Below are positions 21,443-51,280 of a stretch of 64,000 nt of DNA, piece by piece. This DNA comes from Brachycybe producta. Taxonomy: Eukaryota; Arthropoda; Diplopoda; Playtdesmida; Andrognathidae. Made by a program: the position numbers and the translations under genes. Location: assembly GCA_036925085.1 (NCBI GenBank), contig JAUPFP010000013.1:1985001-2049000 (forward strand). Reading direction: 5' to 3'. How positions within the stretch are numbered: position 1 is the stretch's first letter; the number at the start of each line of letters is the position of its first letter. Below the pieces are notes generated by a model. It saw only the letters and a program-made list of their open reading frames with translations. It had not been told where the DNA came from and did no database searches.

Positions 21443-21511
<69 letters not shown>
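21443..21511. repeat. (TA)n microsatellite
   Basis: Uninterrupted AT/TA run of about 69 bp. Confidence 0.98.
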
Positions 21512-21516
<5 letters not shown>

Positions 21517-21667
21517 TTTAGATTATTAACAGGGCTCTGTAGAATGCGTTTATTATTTAAATGTATTTAAATTATTAGTTGTGTACTAGGTTTCTAAAAC
21601 ACTTTAAAGTTTTTCTTAATAATTTTTCCTCCATCATCCTGAAAGACAGAATAATCAGACACACACA

Positions 21668-21772
<105 letters not shown>

Positions 21773-22036
21773 ACAGGGACACAATTAGACATAGACAGAA
21801 TTTCAATCATAATTTCATAAACCATCTTAAACGTATCAAAACGGTACGAACTGCCAAAAGGGGCTGTTTACGTCATATATAGTTGTGCTAGTTAATTCAT
21901 TTTATGCGAAGACAAAAATGTGATTGTTTTAGTATTATTAATGTATTGAATTTCTAACTTAAGTAAATTAAACTATTCCAATATTTGATTTTCTGTCATA
22001 TTGAATAAACTTTTAACAGGTGGCGTGTGTAGTATA

Positions 22037-22037
22037 T

Positions 22038-22104
<67 letters not shown>
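22037..22104. repeat. (GATA)n-(GA)n compound microsatellite
   Basis: Three GATA units run into an uninterrupted GA tract. Confidence 0.97.
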
Positions 22105-38430: not shown

Positions 38431-40419
38431 TGTCAAATATAGCAACATATTGAATAACTTATTTAAACATCACAACTCGCAGTAAGTTACTTTTATATAC
38501 AATTAATTTTCATCATTTCTTGTTACTAATTCACTTTTAAAACAAGTCAAACTTTTTAAAAACAGTTTTGTTTTTCTTCTTAAGTGTATTTGCTGCTGCT
38601 ACTGATGTTGTGCAACAGTTAAAATGATTTACAATGATAGGTCTTAATTTGATGTTCAGAATCCTTATTTTCTGCTGAAGGATGTTAACTGACTGCAAGT
38701 GGCAGAGAAGAGCCTTACACTAGGACCTACTACAACCTGCAAAACGTACAAAACCACAGAACCATCCTCTCAGAGAGAGAAATATGTCTTGATTCTTTCT
38801 TGTATTGACTGAATAGATTTCTTTTTTAGAAAGGAGGGAGAAAGTGAGGGAGGGGTGGGGTGGGTTAGGGGTTCAGATGGACAAGTAGCTTCGTTTTTCT
38901 TTATTTGATGGGAATATGTGTCTGAGAAAGGGAAAAGTAGTAGTAGGAGGAGGAGGAGGAGGAGGAGAAGAAGGAGGATGAGAGAGGATCTTTTATTTCT
39001 TCTCCAGTAGCATCCTTCTGTCTCCTGGTCTTGGTAAAGTTGCATGCATAGTGAATGAAATGTGGAGGAGAGGGAGGATGTATTTCTTTCAGAACTAATG
39101 GGGCGAACTATGTGGCTTGCTATCACACATTTAATCTTGTTCAATCGATGTCCAATAAATATATAGGGGTTGGTCATTGGTGATGGTGGTTGTGATGGTC
39201 GTTGGTGGTTGTGAGGGTGGTTGTTGGCGGGAAAACGGACCGAATTTATCCATATTAAAAGGATGGAGTGGAATAAAGGAGTTGAATGTGCCTGGTACAA
39301 AAAAAAAAAACATTTTATGACTCTTATGTGTCTGTGTGTGTGTGTGTCACACATACAAATTCAAACACTAGGTAAAGACCGGAAAACACTCGCATAATTT
39401 TGGCATTTATTTTGTCGTTTGTGTCGCCACACAAAAAGTTACTTTAGCTTTTTTTTTTAGTAACGATGGTCATATTTTACAGGATGTTTCGATATACAGT
39501 AAATTGGAAAACAAATGTATTACAATTTATTCATTTAGAAATTTTGTTCTATAGACAACAGCGTCATATACAGTAAACGAGTACTTCTATATTGAAACAA
39601 CCATAATTAGTTATGCCCATAATTATAAAGGCATCTTAAAATCTAGGGCAGTGTTTCTCAAACTGTGGTCTGCGGCGGTGTGCCAGGTGGTCTGGCAAGT
39701 GGGACCATAGCAAAAAAATATTTTTTTATCTCCAACTGTCAGAACTGAAGTTACAAAAACAAAAACTAAGTAAGCAATAAGGAAAAGTAACACACGCATA
39801 ATAAAATGCCTCAGGATTTCTGATTATTTATTTCTATTTCTAATTTCTGTTGGGTTTTCAGCATTGTGTGATTCTTCCCTAACTCTCTCTGAAGTAACCG
39901 CCACTGTACTAATGGAAGAAAGCAGTCTGTGTCCCATTACTTGGCTTACAACTACTTGCGCCAGTCAGTGGCGAATCCAAGATGTTTTCATATGGGGGCG
40001 CAAAATTCCAAGAAGCTGGTTACGTACAGCATCGTGGCAGTGCTATTAGAGCTGTGCGCCGCCGAGCAAAAATGCCGCTGCGATGTTTTTTGAAGCTCAA
40101 AACGCCGCCGCTCGCCGCCTGGCCTTTTTAAAAAAAACCCGCCGCCACTCGCCGCCGGTATGTGATGAAACGATAACATTCGATATTTATCGATTTTGAT
40201 TTATATCGATATTTACTATATCCCATATATCGCTATATGTGATCAATATGTACAATATTCGCTGCCTAGCATTAATAAGTATGAATGGTTTGTTTCTTCT
40301 TATACGCCATTAGTCGCCGCCGCTCATTTTTAACCGAGATGCTACGGCACACACCTATTAAATGCTATGCACTGTCGTGAACCCCACCTATATGTGGCAG
40401 ACTAATCATAGGTTACTTT
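38431..40419. other. Upstream flank of the CUB gene and transposon fragments
   Basis: No gene was recognised. The 5' untranslated part of the CUB gene should lie at its left end. GGA-rich sequence at 38940-38985 creates a long leucine run in one minus frame. CAGTGTTTCTCAAACTGTGG at 39652-39671 and CAGTGGCGAATCCAAGA at 39966 look like single hAT ends. A GC-rich segment at 40045-40165 (repeated GCCGCC) and a mirrored CGCCGCCGCTC near 40315 may belong to another hAT element. Confidence 0.4.
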
Positions 40420-40446
40420 GCGCCATTTTGTGTCCATTTTCGCCGC
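40420..40446. repeat. Inverted copy of the right-flank repeat unit
   Basis: GCGCCATTTTGTGTCCATTT followed by TCGCCGC is the reverse complement of units such as GCGGCGAAAATGGACACAAA found at 48640-49150, on the far side of the satellite block. Confidence 0.85.
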
Positions 40447-43400
40447 ATCCCCCCTTTTCACCCCCCTTTTCATCCCTTTTTTTCATCCCCCCTTTTTCAT
40501 CTCCCCTTTTCACCCCCCTTTTTCATCCCCCCTTTTCATCCCCTATCTTCTCCCCCTTTTTTCATTCCCTCTTTTCATCCCCCCTTTTCATTCACACCCC
40601 CTTTTCATCCCCCTTTTCACCCCCTTTTCATCCCCCTTGCATCCCCCTTTTCACCCCCTCTTCAAACCCCTCTTTTTCATCCCCCTTTTCATCCCTTTTC
40701 ATCCCCCTTTTCATCCTCCCTTTTCATCCCCCTTTTTTATCTCCCTTTCATCCCCCTTTTCATCCCCCTTTTCATCCCCCTTTTTTCAACTCCCCCTTTT
40801 CATCCCCCTTTTTTTGTCTCCCCCCTTTTCATCCCCTTTTCATCCCCCTTTTCACCCCTTTTTCATCCCCCTTTTCCCTCCCTTTTCATCCCCCTCTTTT
40901 CATCCCCCTTTTCATCCCCCTTTTCATTCACCCCCTTTTCATCTCCCCCTTTTCATTCCCATTTTTTCATCCCCCCTTTTTTATTCCCTTTCAACCCCCT
41001 TTTCATCCCCCTTTTTATCCCCCTTTTCATCCCCCTTTTTATCCCCCTATTCATCCCCCTTTTCATCCCCCTTTTTTATCTCCCCCTTTTTCATCCCCCT
41101 TTTCATCCCCCTTTTCATCCTCCCTTTTCATCCCCTTTTCATCCCCCTTTCATCCTCCCTTTTCATCCCCTTTTCATCCCCCCTTTTCATCCCCCTTTCT
41201 TCCCCCTTTTTCACCTCCTTTTCACCCCCTCTTTTTCATCCCCCTTTTCATTCACCCCCCTTTCATCTCCCCTTTTATCCCCCTTTTTTCATCTCCCCTT
41301 TTCACCCCCCTTTTTCATCCCCCATTTCATCCTCCCTTTTCATCCCCTTTTCATCCCTCCTTTTCTCCCCCTTTCATCCCCCTTTTTTTCATCCCCCCTT
41401 TTTCATCCCCCTTTTCATCCCCCCTTTTCATCTCCCCCCTTTTCATCTCCCCCTTTTCATCCCCTTTTCAAACCCCTTTTCATCTCCCTTTTTTCATCTC
41501 CTTTTCATCCCTCTTTTTCACCCCCTTTTCATCCCCCTCTTTTCACCCCCCTTTTCATCTCCCCCTTTTCACCCTTTTTTCACCCCCATTTTTCATCCCC
41601 CTTTTTTATTTCCCCATTTCATCCCCCTTTTCACCCCCTTTTCATCCCCCCTTTTTCATCCCTTTTCATCCTCCCCTTTCATCCCCCTTTTCATTGCCCC
41701 TTTTCATCCCCTTTTTCATCAACCCTTTTTTATCCCCCTATTCATCCCCTTTTCACTCCCTTTTCATCCCCCTTTTCATCCCCTTTTCATTCCCCCCTTT
41801 CATCCCCCCTTTTTCATCTACCCTTTCATCCCCCTTTTCATCCCCCTTTTCATTCCCCCTTTTCATCCCCCCTCTTTTCATCCCCCTTTTCACCCCCTCT
41901 TTTTCATCCTCCCTTTTCACCCCCCTCTTTTTCATCCTCCCTTTTTCACCCTCCCTTTTCATTCCCCCTTGCACCCCGCCTTTTTTTCCCCCTTTTCATC
42001 CCCCTTTTCATCCCCTTTTTATCCCCCTTTTCATCCCCCTTTTCATCCTCCCTTTTCATCCCACCTTTTCACTCCATTTTCATCCCCTCTTTTCATCCTC
42101 CCTTTTCATCCCCCTTTCATCCCCCTTTTTTTCATCCCCCCTTTTCATCCCCCTTTTCATCCCCCCTTTTCATCTCCCCCTTTTCATCTCCCCCTTTTCA
42201 TCCCCCTTTCAAACCCCTTTTCATCTCCTTTTCATCCCTCTTTTTCACCCCCTTTTCATCCCCCTCTTTTCACCCCCCTTTTCATCTCCCCCTTTTCACC
42301 CTTTTTTCACCCCCCTTTTCATCCCCCTTTTTATCCCCCTTTTCATCCCCCTTTTTTCAACTCCCCCTTTTCATCCCCCTTTTTTTGTCTCCCCCTTTTC
42401 ACCCCTTTTTTCATCCCCCTTTTCACCCCCTTTTCATCCTCCCTTTCATCCTCCCTTTTCATCCTCCCTTTTCATCCCCCTTTTCATCCTCGCCTTTTCA
42501 TCCCCCTTTTCATCCCCCTTTCATCCCCCTCTTTTCATCCCCCTTTTCATCTCCCCCTTTTCATTCCCCTTTTTCATCCCCCCTTTTTTATTCCCCTTTC
42601 ATCCCCCTTTTCATCCCCCTTTTTATCCCCCTTTTCATTCCCCTTTTTATCCCCCTATTCATCCCCTTTTCATCCCCCTTTTTTCATTTCCCCTTTTCAT
42701 CCCCCTTTTTTATCTCCCCCTTTTCATCCCCCTTTTCATCCTCCCTTTTCATCCCCCTTTTCATCCTCCCTTTTCATCCCCCTTTCATCCTCCCTTTTCA
42801 TCCCCCTTTCTTCCCCCTTTTCACCTCCTTTCACCCCCTCTTTTCACCCCTTCCCCCTTTTCATTCACCCCCCTTTCATCTCCCCTTTCATCCCCCTTTT
42901 TTCAGCCCCCCTTTTCATCACCCCTTTTCACCCCCGTTTTCATCCCTTTTCACGCTCCTTTTCATCCCCTCTATTTTCATCCCCTTTTTCCGCCCCCTTT
43001 TCATCCTCCCTTTTCATCCCCCTTTTTCATCCCCCCTTTTCATTCCCCTTTTCATCTCCCCCTTTTCATCCTCCCTTTTCATCTCCCCCCTTTTCATCTC
43101 CCCCTTTTCATCCCCCTTTTCATCTCCCCCTTTTCATTCCCCTTTTCACCCCCTTGTCATCCCCCTCTTTTCAACCCCCTTTTCATCCCCCTTTCATCCC
43201 CCTCTTTTCATCCCCCTTTTCATTCACCCCCTTTTCATCCTCCCCCTTTTCATCCTCCCCCCTTTTCATCCTCCCCCTTTTCATCTCCCCCCTTTTTATC
43301 TCCCCCCTTTTCATCTCCCCTCTTTTTCATCTCCCCCCTTTTCATCTCCCCCTTTTCATCTCCCTTTTTCATCCCCTTTTCATCCCTCTTTTCATCCCCC

Positions 43401-43554
43401 TTTTTATCCCCCCTTTTTCATCCCTCCTTTTCCGCCCCTTTTCATCACCCCTTTTCATCCTCCCTTTTCATCCCCCTTTTCATTCCCCCTTTTATCTCCC
43501 CTTTTCACCCCCCTTTTCATCTCCCTTTTTCATACCACCTTTCATCCCACTTTC
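40447..43554. repeat. Pyrimidine-rich satellite, TTTTCATCCCCC unit
   Basis: About 3.1 kb of irregular 11-13 bp units built on TTTTCATCCCCC, with variants TTTTCATCTCCCCC, TTTCACCCCC and TTTTTATCCCCC. The plus strand is almost entirely C and T apart from the single A of CAT. The unit lacks stop codons on the plus strand, which creates open frames of over 1,000 codons that are not genes. Confidence 0.97.
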
Positions 43555-43654
43555 NNNNNNNNNNNNNNNNNNNNNNNNNNNNNNNNNNNNNNNNNNNNNN
43601 NNNNNNNNNNNNNNNNNNNNNNNNNNNNNNNNNNNNNNNNNNNNNNNNNNNNNN
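43555..43654. other. Assembly gap of exactly 100 N
   Basis: A round 100-N run is the usual placeholder for unknown length. It separates the pyrimidine-rich from the purine-rich array, so the true joint is unseen. Confidence 0.98.
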
Positions 43655-46600
43655 TGAAAGGATGAAAGGTGAAAGGATGAAAGGATGAAAGGTGAAAGGA
43701 TGAAAGGATGAAAGATGAAAGGATGAAAGGTGAAAGGATGAAAGGTGAAAGGATGAAAGGTGAAAGGATGAAAGGTGAAAGGATGAAAGGTGAAAGGATG
43801 AAAAGTGAAAGGATGAAAAGTGAAAGGATGAAAAGTGAAAGGATGAAAAGTGAAAGGATGAAAAGTGAAAGGATGAAAAGTGAAAGGATGAAAAGTGAAA
43901 GGATGAAAAGTGAAAGGATGAAAAGTGAAAGGATGAAAAGTGAAAGGATGAAAAGTGAAAGGATGAGAAGTGAAAGGATGAAAAGTGAAAGGATGAAAAG
44001 TGAAAGGATGAAAAGTGAAAGGATGAGAAGTGAAAGGATGAGAAGTGAAAGGATGAAAAGATGAAAGGATGAAAAGATGAAAGGTGAAAAGATGAAAGGT
44101 GAAAAGATGAATGGATAAATGGATAAAAGGATGGAAGGATGAAAGGTGAAAGGATGAAAGGTGAAAGGATGAAAGGTGAAAGGATGAAAGATGAAAGGAT
44201 GAAAGGATGAAAGATGAAAGGATGAAAGGATGAAAGGTGAAAGGATGAAAGGATGAAAGGATGAAAGGTGAAAGGATGAAAGGTGAAAGGATGAAAGGTG
44301 AAAGGATGAAAGGTGAAAGGATGAAAGGTGAAAGGATGAGAAGTGAAAGGATGAGAAGTGAAAGGATGAGAAGTGAAAGGATGAAAAGTGAAAGGATGAA
44401 AGGTGAAAGGATGAAAGGTGAAAGGATGAGAAGGATGAGAAGTGAAAGGATGAGAAGTGAAAGGATGAGAAGTGAAAGGATGAAAGGAGGAAAGGATGAA
44501 AGGTGAAAGGATGAGAGGTGAAAGGAGGAAAGGGTGAAAGGAGGAAAGGATGAAAGGAGGAAAGGAGGAAAGGAGGAAAGGAGGAAAGGAGGAAAGGAAG
44601 AAAGGATGAAAGGTGAAAGGATGAAAGGATGAAAGGTGAAAGGATGAGAAGTGAAAGGAGGAAAGGAGGAAAGGAGGAAAGGAGGAAAGGAGGAAAGGAG
44701 GAAAGGAGGAAAGGAGGAAAGGAGGAAAGGAGGAAAGGAGGAAAGGAGGAAAGGAGGAAAGGAGGAAAGGAGGAAAGGAGGAAAGGAGGAAAGGAGGAAA
44801 GGAGGAAAGGAGGAAAGGTGAAAGGAGGAAAGGTGAAAGGAGGAAAGGTGAAAGGAGGAAAGGTGAAAGGAGGAAAAGTGAAAGGATGAAAAGTGAAAGG
44901 AGGAAAAGTGAAAGGAGGAAAAGTGAAAGGAGGAAAAGTGAAAGGAGGAAAAGTGAAAGGATGAAAAGTGAAAGGATAAGTGAAAGGATGAAAAGTAAAA
45001 GGATGAAAGGATGAAAAGTGAAAGGATGAAAAGTGAAAGGATGAAAGGATGAAAGGATGAAAGGATGAAAGGATGAAAGGATGAAAGGTGAAAGGATGAA
45101 AGGTGAAAGGATGAAAGGTGAAAGGTGAAAGGATGAAAGGTGAAAGGATGAAAGGTGAAAGGATGAAAGGTGAAAGGATGAAAGGTGAAAGGATGAAAGG
45201 TGAAAGGAGGAAAGGTGAAAGGAGGAAAGGAGGAAAGGTGAAAGGAGGAAAGGTGAAAGGAGGAAAGGTGAAAGGATGAAAAGTGAAAGGATGAAAGTGA
45301 AAGGATGAAAAGTGAAAGGATGAAAAGTGAAAGGATGAAAGGTGAAAGGATGAAAGGTGAAAGGATGAAAGGTGAAAGGTGAAAGGATGAAAGGATGAGA
45401 AGTGAAAGGATGAGAAGTGAAAGGATGAAAGGTGAAAGGATGAAAGGTGAAAGGATGAAAGGATGAAAGGTGAAAGGATGAAAGGTGAAAGGAGGAAAGG
45501 AGGAAAGGAGGAAAGGAGAAAGGAGGAAAGGAGGAAAGGAGGAAAGGAGGAAAGGATGAAAGGAGCCGGAAAGGATGAAAGGTGAAAGGATGAAAGGTGA
45601 AAGGATGAAAGGTGAAAGGATGAAAGGTGAAAGGATGAAAGGTGAAAGGATGAAAGGATGAAAGGTGAAAGGATGAAAGGTGAAAGGGTGAAAGGGTGTG
45701 AAAGGTGAAAGGGTGAAAGGATGAAAGGTGAAAGGTGAAAGGATGAAAAGTGAAAGGATGAAAAGTGAAAGGATGAAAAGTGAAAGGATGAAAAGTGAAA
45801 AGATGAAAAGTGAAAGGATGAAAAGTGAAAGGATGAGAAGTGAAAGGATGAAAAGTGAAAGGATGAGAAGTGAAAGGATGAGAAGTGAAAGGATGAAAGG
45901 TGAAAGGATGAAAGGTGAAAGGATGAAAGGTGAAAGGATGAAAGGTTGAAAGGATGAAAGGTGAAAAGTTGAAAGTGAAAGAATGATAGGTGAAAGGATG
46001 AAAAGATGAAAGGTGAAAGGATGAATGGATGAAAGGTGAAAGGATGAAAGGTGAAAGGTGAAAAGTTGAAAAGTGAAAGGATGAAAAGATGAAAGGATGA
46101 AAAGATGAAAGGTGAAAGGATGAATGGATAAAAGGATGAAAGGATGAAAGGTGAAAGGATGAAAGGTGAAAGGATGAAAGGTGAAAGGATGAAAGGATGA
46201 AAGGATGAAAGATGAAAGATGAAAGGATGAAAGATGAAAGGATGAAAGATGAAAGATGAAAGGATGAAAGATGAAAGGATGAAAGGTGAAAGGATGAAAG
46301 GTGAAAGGATGAAAGGTGAAAGGATGAAAGGATGAAAGGATGAAAGATGAAAGGATGAAAGGTGAAAGGATGAATGGATGAAAGATGAAAGATGAAAGGA
46401 TGAAAGGTGAAAGGATGAATGGATGAAAGGTGAAAGGATGAAAGGATGAAAGGTGAAAGGTGAAAAGTTGAAAAGTGAAAGGATGAAAAGATGAAGGATG
46501 AAAAGATGAAAGGATGAAAAGATGAAAGGTGAAAGGAATGAATGGATAAAAGGATGAAAGGATGAAAGGTGAAAGGATGAAAGGTGAAAGGATGAAAGGT

Positions 46601-48577
46601 GTGAAAGGATGAAAGGTGAAAGGATGAAAGGTGAAAGGATGAAAGATGAAAGGATGAAAGGATGAAAGGATGAAAGATGAAAGGATGAAAGGATGAAAGG
46701 TGAAAGGATGAAAGGATGAAAGGTGAAAGAATGAAAGTTGAAAGGATGAAAGGTGAAAGAATGAAAGGTGAAAGGATGAAAGGTGAAAGGATGAAAGGGT
46801 GAAAGGATGAAAGGATGAAAGGTGAAAGGATGAAAGGATGAAAGGATGAAAGGATGAAAGGATGAAAGGATGAAAGGTGAAAGGATGAAAGGATGAAAGG
46901 ATGAAAGGATGAAAGGATGAAAGGATGAAAAGTGAAAGGATGAAAAGTGAAAGGATGAGAAGTGAAAGGATGAGAAGTGAAAGGATGAAAAGTGAAAGGA
47001 TGAAAAGTGAAAGGATGAAAAGTGAAAGGATGAAAGGTGAAAGGATGAAAGGTGAAAGGATGAAAGGATGAGAGGTGAAAGGATGAGAGGTGAAAGGATG
47101 AGAAGTGAAAGGATGAGAGGTGAAAGGATGAGAAGTGAAAGGATGAAAGGTGAAAGGATGAAAGGTGAAAGGATGAAAGGCTGAAAGGATGAAAGGTGAA
47201 AGGATGAAAGGTGAAAGGATGAAAGGTGAAAGGATGAAAGGTGAAAGGATGAAAGGATGAAAGGTGAAAGGATGAAAAGTGAAAGGATGAAAAGTGAAAG
47301 GATGAAAAGTGAAAGGATGAAAAGTGAAAGGATGAGAAGTGAAGGATGAAAAGTGAAAGGATGAGAAGTGAAAGGATGAAAAGTGAAAGGATGAGAAGTG
47401 AAAGGATGAAGGTGAAAGGATGAGAAGTGAAAGGATGAAAAGTGAAAGGATGAAAGGATGAAAGGATGAAAAGTGAAAGGATGAAAAGATGAAAGGATGA
47501 AAGGTGAAATGATGAAAGGTGAAAGGATGAAAGGTGAAAGGATGAAAGGTGAAAGGATGAAAAGTGAAAGGATGAAAAGATGAAAGGATGAAAGGTTGAA
47601 ATGGTGAAAGGATGAAAGGTGAAAGGATGAAAAGTGAAAGGATGAAAAGATGAAAGGATGAAAGGTGAAATGATGAAAGGTGAAAGGATGAAAGGTGAAA
47701 GATGAAAGGTGAAAGGATGAAAGGTGAAAGGATGAAAGGTGAAAGGATGAAAGGTGAAAGATGAAAGGTGAAAGGATGAAAGGTGAAAGGATGAAAGGTG
47801 AAAGGATGAAAAGTGAAAGGATGAAAAGTGAAAGGATGAAAAGTGAAAGGATGAAAAGTGAAAGGATGAAAAGTGAAGGATGAGAAGTGAAAGGATGAAA
47901 AGTGAAAGGATGAGAAGTGAAAGGATGAAACGTGAAAGGATGAAAGGTGAAAGGATGAAAGGATGAAAGGTGAAAGAATGAAAGGTGAAAGGATGAGAAG
48001 TGAAAGGATGAAAGGTGAAAGGATGAAAGGTGAAAGGATGAGAAGTGAAAGGATGAAAAGTGAAAGGATGGAAAAGATGAAAGGATGAAAGGATGAAAGG
48101 TGAAAGGATGAAAGGTGAAAGGATGAGAAGTGAAAGGATGAAAAGTGAAAGATGAGAAGTGAAAGGATGAAAAGTGAAAGGATGAAAAGTGAAAGGATGA
48201 AAAGATGAAAGGATGAAAGGTGAAATGATGAAAGGTGAAAGGATGAGAAGTGAAAGGATGAAAGGTGAAAGGTGAAAGGATGAAAGGTGAAAGGATGAAA
48301 GGTGAAAGGATGAAAGGATGAAAGGTGAAAGGTGAAAAGTTGAAAAGTGAAAGAATGATAGGTGAAAGGATGATAGGTGAAAGGATGAAAAGATGAAAGG
48401 TGAAAGGATGAATGGATAAAAGGATGGAAGGATGAAAGGTGAAAAGTGAAAGGATGGAAGGATGAAAGGTGAAAGGATGAAAGGTGAAAGGATGAAAGGT
48501 GAAAAGATGGAAGGATGAAAGGTGAAAGGATGAAAGGTAAAAGGATGGAAGGATGAAAGGTGAAAGGATGAAAGAGT
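43655..48577. repeat. Purine-rich satellite of 8- and 7-bp units
   Basis: About 4.9 kb of GAAAGGAT (8 bp) alternating with GAAAGGT or GAAAAGT (7 bp), mostly as 15-bp pairs. Local homogenised blocks are visible: GAAAAGT-type at 43800-44060, pure GGAGGAAA 8-mers at about 44650-44820, and mixed blocks further on. The plus strand is nearly all A and G apart from the T of GAT or GT. The minus strand lacks stops and gives spurious frames up to 1,900 codons. Confidence 0.97.
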
Positions 48578-49294
48578 GGCAAACATGGATAAAAAATGGA
48601 CACAAAATGGAAGCAAAATTGGACCAAAAATTGGTGGCAAAAATGGACACAAAATGGCGCCAAAAATGGCCACAACAAGGTGCCTAAAATGGACACAAAA
48701 TGGCGGCAAAATGGACCTAATATGGCGGCGAAATATGGACAAAATATGGACAAAAAATGGATGAAGAATGGACGAAAAATGAACGAAGAATGGACGAAAA
48801 GCGGACGAAAAACAGATAAAAAACAACAGACTAAAATGAAGTGAAAATGGACGATAAATGGATGAAAAATGGACGAAAAACACGGAAAAACGGACGAAAA
48901 AATGGACACAAACTTGCGTCGAAAATACACACAATGTCGGCGAAAATAGTGGCAAAATGGCCGCGAAATTGAACTCAAAATGGCGGCGTAAATAGACAAC
49001 ATGGGTTACATGGGTGTGAAAATGGACACAAAATGGCGGCGAGAAAATGCCGACAATAATGGACAAAAAATTGCGGCGAAAATGAACAAAAAATGGTGGC
49101 GTAAATGGACAAAAAATGGCGCTGAAAATGGACACAAAATGGCGGCGACAACAATGGACAAAAAATGGCGGCGAAAATGAACAAAAAATGGCGCTGAAAA
49201 TGGACAAAAAAAATGGCGCCGAAAATGAACGAAAAATGGCGCCGAAAATGAACAAAAAATGGCGGCGAAAATGGACAAAAAATGGCGGCGAAAT
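48578..49294. repeat. 24-bp tandem repeat with ATGGCGGC cores
   Basis: Degenerate units AAAATGGCGGCGAAAATGAA plus CAAA (about 24 bp) and AAAATGGACACAAAATGG. I count eight exact ATGGCGGC cores plus GGCGCC, GGTGGC and GGCGCT variants. Order increases towards the right end at 49294. Confidence 0.93.
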
Positions 49295-51280
49295 TGAAAT
49301 TCTTCAAGTTTCCTTTTCAGTATTATGGCTAAAATTCAAGAAAAGAAATTTGATACTTGGTCTTAAACTTGAATCCTCAGAACAGGGTTCCAACACAGAC
49401 ACATTTTCAGTTTTGAAACTCTGTAAAACTAAATTTGAACAATAAATAATAATTTGATTTAATTTTAATTTTATGCAATATTTAGGCCTACTTTTGCAAC
49501 TTTTATTGTTTTGGGCTTATTGAAGATAATTCTCTGGTCAACTACACCCTGCACATGATAGAAACATATTAAGGAAACGGTATGAAGTACTAACTGGATT
49601 ATTTCTGTGATAAATACTGATAATCCAATTCTAAATTCATTTATTTTAGGTCATTTGACGTCATTAATCGGCAGTTGCATATTGTGAACTTTAAACCACA
49701 TAGAAAAGTTGTTTCATGGGGCTTTTTTGTAATCTTAAAGCTTTTTTTTTTTTGCCATAAATTTTAGGGCATTCTGGCGAATTTTCAAGATGGTTTTAAC
49801 ACGTGTTTTAAAGTGTAAACATGCCTCTCAAACTTTTATTATTTGTGTCTTTTAGAAGTAACATCTAGAGAAAATTGAAAATGTTTTGGAAACAAGAAGG
49901 GTAGTTCAATCAATTAAGATTCTACATCGCAAAATTACTTTGAAAAATCTCCACAAAGAGTGCTAGCATCGTTGTTTCTATTGAACCCATAGACCCGATG
50001 GTTCAAAGTACAATGTGCACTTTAAATATATGCTGATCGAGTGGTAGAATGACAAAAAATTGTTAAGTGTGGTTATATTTTTTTAAAAAAAATGTCAAAA
50101 TCGCGAATTTCTAACTCTTATGTTAAACTCCATAGAGTACGCGCCCGTAAGCAAAAAAAAATCCATTAAAATGCTCATAAAATTGATGAAATTTTTTTTT
50201 CAAAAAAATGAAAAATCTTCTAAATGCCCCGAAAAACAGTGAAACTAGCTCTGGAGGGCCGAACACACTTGTGAGGACCGGAAAATCCCATAAATTCAAA
50301 AAAGTCCACGAATTTTTTCATTTTTTGACATTTTTTACTTTTTCGAATTTATGGGCTTTTCTGGTACTCCGAAGTCTGTTGGGCCCTTCTGAGTTAGTTT
50401 CAGTACTTTTCAGGGCATCTAAAGACTTTTAATTTTTTTTAAACTTATTTAAAAAAAATTCAGAGGCCTCTGACAAATTTTCATTTTAAAAAAAAAAATT
50501 TAAACCCCTTTGACAAATTTTCATTTTTTGACATTTTTAGTCTCGACGTCGTTAAAGACAATCTGAGCACCTCCTCCTGCAGAAAAAATGACACTTCCCT
50601 TGAAATAAGTGTCGAAATGTCTTCTTAAACATTCTGTTCCTGATGATCGAGTTAAGACATACAATCTACTTCGGAGCTTCTTTCGTAACATCCTTCATTC
50701 ATAGTTAACTTTGTGACGGATTTACGTCTCATTATCTTTGGCTGGTGAATCGTACCTTGCAGGATGTTCTAAAAAACACCAAAACGATTCGAAACTGACT
50801 CGGGAGGGCCCAACCGACTCCTGAATACAAGAAAAGCCCACAAATTCTTTACTATTAAGTATCACCTGACCATTTAACTAAGAGGATCACTGGGTTAGGT
50901 TCACCACTGAGTTTAGTTGACCACTGGGTTAAGTGGACTAATCAGCTTATGCGATTACTGGATGTCCAGATTCCGAGAATTAATTAGTAGATAAGACCCA
51001 AAAAAGGCATTTCCCTTAAAAGAAAAATAAGTGAATTGCAGAATCTTCTTGAATTTTCCAAGTTTTCATTTAGCAACTTATTAATTAAAAGCATGTTAGA
51101 AACTAGAATAGTAAATTTACTGTTTAAAAGTGTTTTTATAATGATATCGTTGGAAACACTACTGCAAAAAAGGTCAACTTCTGACATTTTTACATTTATC
51201 TCGACGTTTCCAACGATTAAAAACGGAACACCTGTAATTGCAACAAGAACGGCACAAGAGGAAAAATTCTTTAAAACACT
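49295..51280. other. Intergenic, repeat-derived
   Basis: No gene was recognised. A half copy of the palindromic repeat lies at 49788-49960. Hairpin sequences are at 50208-50432 with a single arm at 50768-50845. An 18-19 bp degenerate tandem repeat (ACCACTGGGTTAAGT) is at about 50880-50945. Confidence 0.5.
50208..50432. repeat. 225-bp near-palindromic hairpin
   Basis: GTGAAACTAGCTCTGGAGGG at the left pairs with CCCTTCTGAGTTAGTTTCAG at the right. Inner arms are CCCATAAATTC and GAATTTATGGG around a TTTTTTGACATTTTTT centre. A single diverged arm (GAAACTGACTCGGGAGGGCC) recurs at 50790-50809. Confidence 0.82.

Follow-up and report, generated by a model that had tools for sequence, protein, structure and literature searches.

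The block at positions 40420-49294 of a 64,000-nucleotide stretch of the Brachycybe producta genome (GenBank assembly GCA_036925085.1, contig JAUPFP010000013.1; C13:1985001-2049000), the whole of which is referred to here as the window, belongs to a layered satellite family dispersed through the genome, each locus of which, where read, consists of two tandem arrays that diverge from a central axis. Wherever the axis was read across, at 13 of 13 loci with the window among them, pyrimidines dominate the left arm and purines the right. The initial annotation, made from the letters of the window, had described the block as what a large inverted structure would look like; this is borne out, and the feature is a recurrent variant of satellite DNA (short units repeated head to tail in long arrays, at many loci) that is more ordered than that annotation could see.

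The usual picture of satellite arrays is of blocks running head to tail and oriented with little regularity. Here a single strand rule and a single main order of layers govern many loci, among them loci with unaligned inner arms. The dispersed satellites reported in Crassostrea gigas and Rhynchospora are similar in that their arrays are scattered along chromosomes; we know of no consistent mirrored polarity or layer order in them. No description of this arrangement was found in the open-licence literature of PubMed Central.

Recurrence and strand polarity of the arrays

The block was delimited by direct reading and with Tandem Repeats Finder (TRF), and the change of strand composition that had been annotated at its assembly gap is confirmed, with a GC skew of about -0.98 before the gap and +1.00 after it (per kb, -0.975 and -0.987 at 41-43 kb and +0.989 to +1.000 at 44-48 kb). 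TRF reports a left array on the pyrimidine strand (40446-43548, unit CATCCCCCCTTTT, 244.5 copies) and a right array on the purine strand (43655-48574, unit TGAAAGGATGAAAGG, 329.9 copies). Units of a 23-mer family lie at both outer ends in opposite orientation, as had been noted, at 40420-40446 and in a TRF array at 48592-49293. The arms are indeed not simple copies of one another: they have 0.9% of distinct 14-mers in common, and their inner 3 kb give no local alignment.

The genome, of 295,300,729 bases in 442 contigs, was searched with four probes (the right array, the outer 23-mer, the left array and an A-rich inner layer) and the best candidates were scored; among the matches listed, many places on many contigs are represented. 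Eleven of the 13 axes are free of gaps and two contain 100 N (Table 1). Five loci (C31, C25, C27, C8:7.305 and C3) were chosen after both strands were already visible in the match tables and are therefore not blind tests. Six others (C22, C44, C42, C8:2.25, C40 and C4) were chosen with one arm or strand visible from the array-probe matches, and the start of C8 (C8:7201) was chosen as an apparent exception; all seven run from pyrimidine to purine. In the match tables alone, no fewer than nine further places have a minus-strand array on the left and a plus-strand array on the right, about 20 kb apart at most. An axis is also crossed on C133, outside the 13, at 77 bases before the contig end, while C11 was left uncounted because its pyrimidine arm amounts to just ~200 bases between the gap and the purine arm. 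The loci with both ends read (the window, C22, C42, C8:2.25 and C31) are about 9 to 17 kb long. Among the matches listed, loci on two contigs are spaced 2.1 to 2.6 Mb apart (C8 at 0.007, 2.25, 4.69 and 7.31 Mb; C1 at 1.93, 4.03 and 6.48 Mb).

Strand polarity was quantified in 30 arms totalling 155,470 bases, with arm limits set by us from a purine walk. Scanning windows of 100 bp were classed by the purine content of the outward strand, as outward above 60% and as inward below 40%, with intermediate ones left unclassified; the purine strand is outward in 1534 of 1537 classified windows and inward in 3. Single motifs follow the same rule (GATGAA, 7245 outward and 5 inward; ATGGCGGC, 466 and 0; AAAATG, 2884 and 13), as does the 23-mer at up to 4 mismatches in the 14 arms with at least 8 copies (842 outward, 1 inward), and the outward GC skew lies between 0.20 and 1.00 in every arm. 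Summed over pairs of 18 arms, there are 30,150 distinct 14-mers in common when the arms are read in the outward sense, against 414 in the opposite sense. Counted over the whole genome at up to 3 mismatches, a 40-base pattern of the GATGAAAG array occurs 1336 and 1420 times on the two strands and a 42-base dimer of the 23-mer 1275 and 1294 times, which is the balance that mirrored arrays require; controls with both patterns reversed gave 0. For this arrangement, found at all 13 axes, we propose the descriptive class of satellite DNA with fixed mirror polarity. The small exceptions, all seen with the A-rich probe, are brief flips of orientation within C25 and C35 and two very small reversed pairs elsewhere (below).

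Contigs C70, C92 and C81 terminate in a pyrimidine arm and C13 begins in a purine arm, as would be expected if the assembly breaks near the axis; C8, which begins in the outer part of a left arm, is an exception. Arrays contain or adjoin five gaps of 100 N (the window, C4, C11, C25 and C40), and they may account for assembly breaks at such places.

Similarity of the arms and order of the layers

The initial annotation offered two explanations of the block, a palindromic satellite diverged arm by arm or a wrong join of two arrays at the 100-N gap, and these are too narrow. Arms were compared by the best left-right alignment of their inner 3 kb, or of the shorter length available (528 and ~1170 bases for C4). 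Strong alignments, of 81-88% over 581 to 2201 columns, were obtained at six of the 13 loci (C31, 88% over 2040 columns; C8:7.305, 83% over 2201; C25, 85% over 1286; and C42, C27 and C3), which agrees with a palindrome. Alignment is weak at C8:2.25 and C40, however, and absent at C22, C44, the start of C8, C4 and the window, and the best partner of a left arm is its own right arm at C27 and C8:7.305 only. With the inner 3 kb unaligned at five of the 13 loci, the slow divergence of a palindrome does not explain everything. A wrong join is possible for the window's own gap, but it is superfluous, because C22, C44 and the start of C8 (0.007 Mb) show the same switch between unaligned inner arms at an axis with no gap.

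Polarity is kept at all five loci with unaligned inner arms. The arms of C22 and C44 belong to one family despite their unaligned inner parts, since whole arms have 14-mers in common (6.6% and 1.7%, respectively) and both arms of C44 terminate in 23-mers. The closest arrays elsewhere to the left arm of the window, among the matches listed, are on C177 and C5 (75-77%).

Layers were mapped by labelling 100-bp bins with ten unit seeds chosen after inspection, alongside TRF. The main order outwards from the axis is A-rich 9-mers (AAAAAACG, AAAAATGCA and AAAAAATGG), then the GGATGAAA 8-mer with its 15/16-mer forms, then the 23-mer, and it is kept in 18 arms in which two or all three classes are present (C27R, C8bL, C8bR and C8aL among them, and with C44R counted on a 23-mer detected by TRF only). 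Ten of the 11 gap-free axes, all but that of C3, have A-rich 9-mers next to them on one side or both, and the 100-N gap of the window may conceal such a layer, by analogy with the other loci. Most of 14 inspected junctions between layers switch within about one unit (the position taken for C70L fell off its junction), and at C31 the inner junction sequence is the same in both arms. Departures from the order comprise stray bins labelled A-rich among or outside the 23-mers (C3R, the right arm of the window and C92L), an additional GGGGGAAAAAG layer beyond the 23-mers at the start of C8, interposed stretches of GGACGTT, GGACGAGTGGG and GAGGAAAG, and two 8-mer bins at the axis of C8L, within a GGACGTT layer. 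We infer that the unit types descend from a unit containing AAAATGG. In the outermost layer (48592-49294, and in other outer layers) the 23-mer includes AAAATGGCGGC, which appears to match the YY1 binding consensus.

Possible origins of the mirrored polarity

The mechanism that we prefer, while holding it somewhat short of probable, is satellite growth polarised by replication forks that leave the axis in both directions. The axis would be a present or past site from which forks are sent both ways, and the outward purine strand, which is poor in C, would be the lagging-strand template in both arms (plus on the right, minus on the left). Fork polarity would then select the orientation, with repeats near the axis expanding mainly in this one and separately in each arm, and the result would be a pyrimidine left and a purine right arm, also at loci whose inner arms have ceased to align. 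This mechanism is favoured because the purine strands would be lagging-strand templates and because homopurine GAA repeats are reported to be most prone to instability when they lie in the lagging-strand template (PMC10484681). The GAA/TTC expansions of Friedreich ataxia are alike in being a purine/pyrimidine repeat whose instability depends on fork orientation (PMC10484681), but they concern a trinucleotide at a single locus and in one direction, whereas the present arrays form many two-armed loci of several unit types. If fork polarity is the cause, the arrays would amount to a natural genome-scale test of orientation-dependent repeat expansion, and would mark initiation sites in a species with no such map known to us. 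It is a rather doubtful extension that the axes are fixed initiation sites at which the satellites record fork polarity, with purine repeats expanding on the lagging-strand template only; the position of each site could then be read from assembled sequence.

Several observations count against growth polarised by forks. Substitutions in the 23-mer, read on the outward strand, show more G-to-A than C-to-T (132 against 46 at CpG, with 102 of the 132 at one position), which departs from our expectation for deamination of a lagging-strand template. Unit homogeneity has no peak at the axis, and in C31 stretches of 97-100% lie ~5.4-7 kb out; growth centred on the axis was rejected, as homogeneity does not rise towards it. 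The GAA results are extrapolated here, since GGATGAAA units are not purely homopurine. With the A-rich probe, two very small pairs are reversed (C113:13.7 kb and C1:20.906 Mb), where no matches of the other probes were seen among those listed. Moreover, the arms form one unit family and the outer 23-mer is common at many loci, and on that account descent from one ancestral inverted block could produce this polarity as well.

Inheritance is the strongest rival, followed by foldback ancestry and then divergent transcription. One ancestral inverted satellite might have been spread by segmental duplication or ectopic exchange, with the arms turning over independently since and orientation no longer enforced, an account we regard as possible but not likely. 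Arms of different loci have unit types and layer order in common, arms still align at loci such as C31, C8:7.305 and C25, those of C31 carry the same inner junction, and the flanks of C8L and of the window's right arm contain collinear pieces in common, all of which suits a common ancestor. Yet a left arm finds its best partner in its own right arm at just two of the 13 loci, and a genome search showed that most of the common flank pieces are dispersed repeats which also occur away from arrays, leaving a flank that travels with the arms as no more than a possibility. That the loci are old foldback-type DNA transposons, with long terminal inverted repeats made of tandem repeats, is unlikely. 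The ordered domains within their inverted tandem arrays do resemble the flanking, outer and inner domains of Tetris of Drosophila virilis, in whose description FB and sea urchin elements are named alongside it as foldback transposons (PMC4079207). However, the five loci with both flanks available show no target-site duplication, the longest common stretch being 4-7 bases and within the range of shuffles (60-base flanks against 300 shuffles, with ends placed by eye and purine walk, so that a shifted end could escape). Inspection of 15 outer edges found no common terminus, the 23-mer family being present at many but with differing last bases, and there is no middle domain at the gap-free axes, where the switch happens within bases and no core gene or transposase lies between the arms. 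These three absences disfavour a foldback transposon of the Tetris kind (PMC4079207), and the inner arms, unaligned at five loci and weakly aligned at two but clearly aligned at six, differ from it in part.

Transcription diverging from the axis, whose purine-rich RNA and R-loops would select or maintain C-poor non-template strands in both arms, would be consistent with the outward GC skew of all 30 arms, and an axis of T-tract and A-tract might suit an open promoter. However, the genes identified to the left and to the right of the block in the window all lie on the minus strand, which means that the axis does not serve them as a divergent promoter, and we consider this explanation improbable. 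Very improbable is the idea that the loci would be units of a dispersed, holocentric-like centromere whose dyad layout serves kinetochore chromatin; they are spread over many contigs, among the matches listed, and satellite-based holocentromeres are reported in plants. An assembly artefact, in which contigs ending in arrays were joined in the wrong orientation, could draw on the five 100-N gaps, but 11 axes are continuous with no N, and arms that align do so at 81-88% whereas chimeric fold-back reads would be expected to be nearly identical; this we hold to be extremely unlikely.

Features of the window and other observations

The coordinates of the block, its neighbours and the related axes are collected in Table 1.

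Table 1. Layers of the block, flanking genes and axes elsewhere in the genome
Feature	Position	Strand	Remark
Outermost left layer, ~1.3 copies of 23-mer GGCGGCGAAAATGGACACAAAAT	40420..40446	-	Inverted relative to right end
Left arm, GATGAAAAGGGGG-type 12/13-mer array	40447..43554	-	Purine strand is minus, reads outward (leftward)
Assembly gap, exactly 100 N, at mirror axis	43555..43654	.	
Right arm, GATGAAAGGTGAAAG 15-mer array (8-mer GGATGAAA family)	43655..48577	+	Purine strand is plus
Homogeneous all-purine GGAGGAAA stretch	44655..44816	+	Within right arm
Outermost right layer, degenerate 11-mers (AAAAATGGACG) and 23-mer AAAATGGCGGCGAAAATGGACA	48578..49294	+	
CUB-domain open reading frame	34.5-36.9 kb	-	Window
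Guanylate-cyclase and kinase-like exons	53.8-56.4 kb	-	Window
Gap-free axes (n=11)	C31:2667707, C25:1163229, C22:979660, C44:1188386, C42:122911, C8:2249655, C8:7201, C8:7305362, C27:2063411, C3:13510040, C40:567207		
Axes with 100 N (n=2)	Window, C4:6449729		
Further agreeing places	C1:4.03, C1:6.48, C2:8.655, C3:2.105, C5:7.20, C6:5.83, C8:4.69 Mb		Match tables
Further agreeing places	C35, C36		A-rich probe only

The arrays of the window are traversed by stop-free frames as long as 1928 aa (43517-49303 on the minus strand, 40362-43688 on the plus strand). They were rejected as genes, since a strand of stop-poor composition explains them, and very long frames in arrays of this kind should be treated with the same caution. 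Neither a tRNA nor, at gathering score, any Rfam family was found in the window; long AT and AG dinucleotide microsatellites lie at 21443-22104.

Beyond the right arm, pieces of the flank at 49297-49702 also occur at C29:3025523-3025882 and in copies at C1:1905895-1907419, with no satellite array in the 3.5 kb examined at each of these two places. Also close to the right arm, at 49914-50215, is a high-copy dispersed repeat that elsewhere often occurs as inverted pairs.

On contig C442 the invertebrate mitochondrial code gives an open COX1; cox2 is adjacent and tRNAs were mapped, a picture that we read as probably that of an arthropod. Further COX1 matches lie on large contigs, at C1:12697416-12698753, where the score is close to that of the mitochondrial contig and there is one extra stop, and at C17:4027703-4029047; both are probably nuclear copies of mitochondrial DNA.

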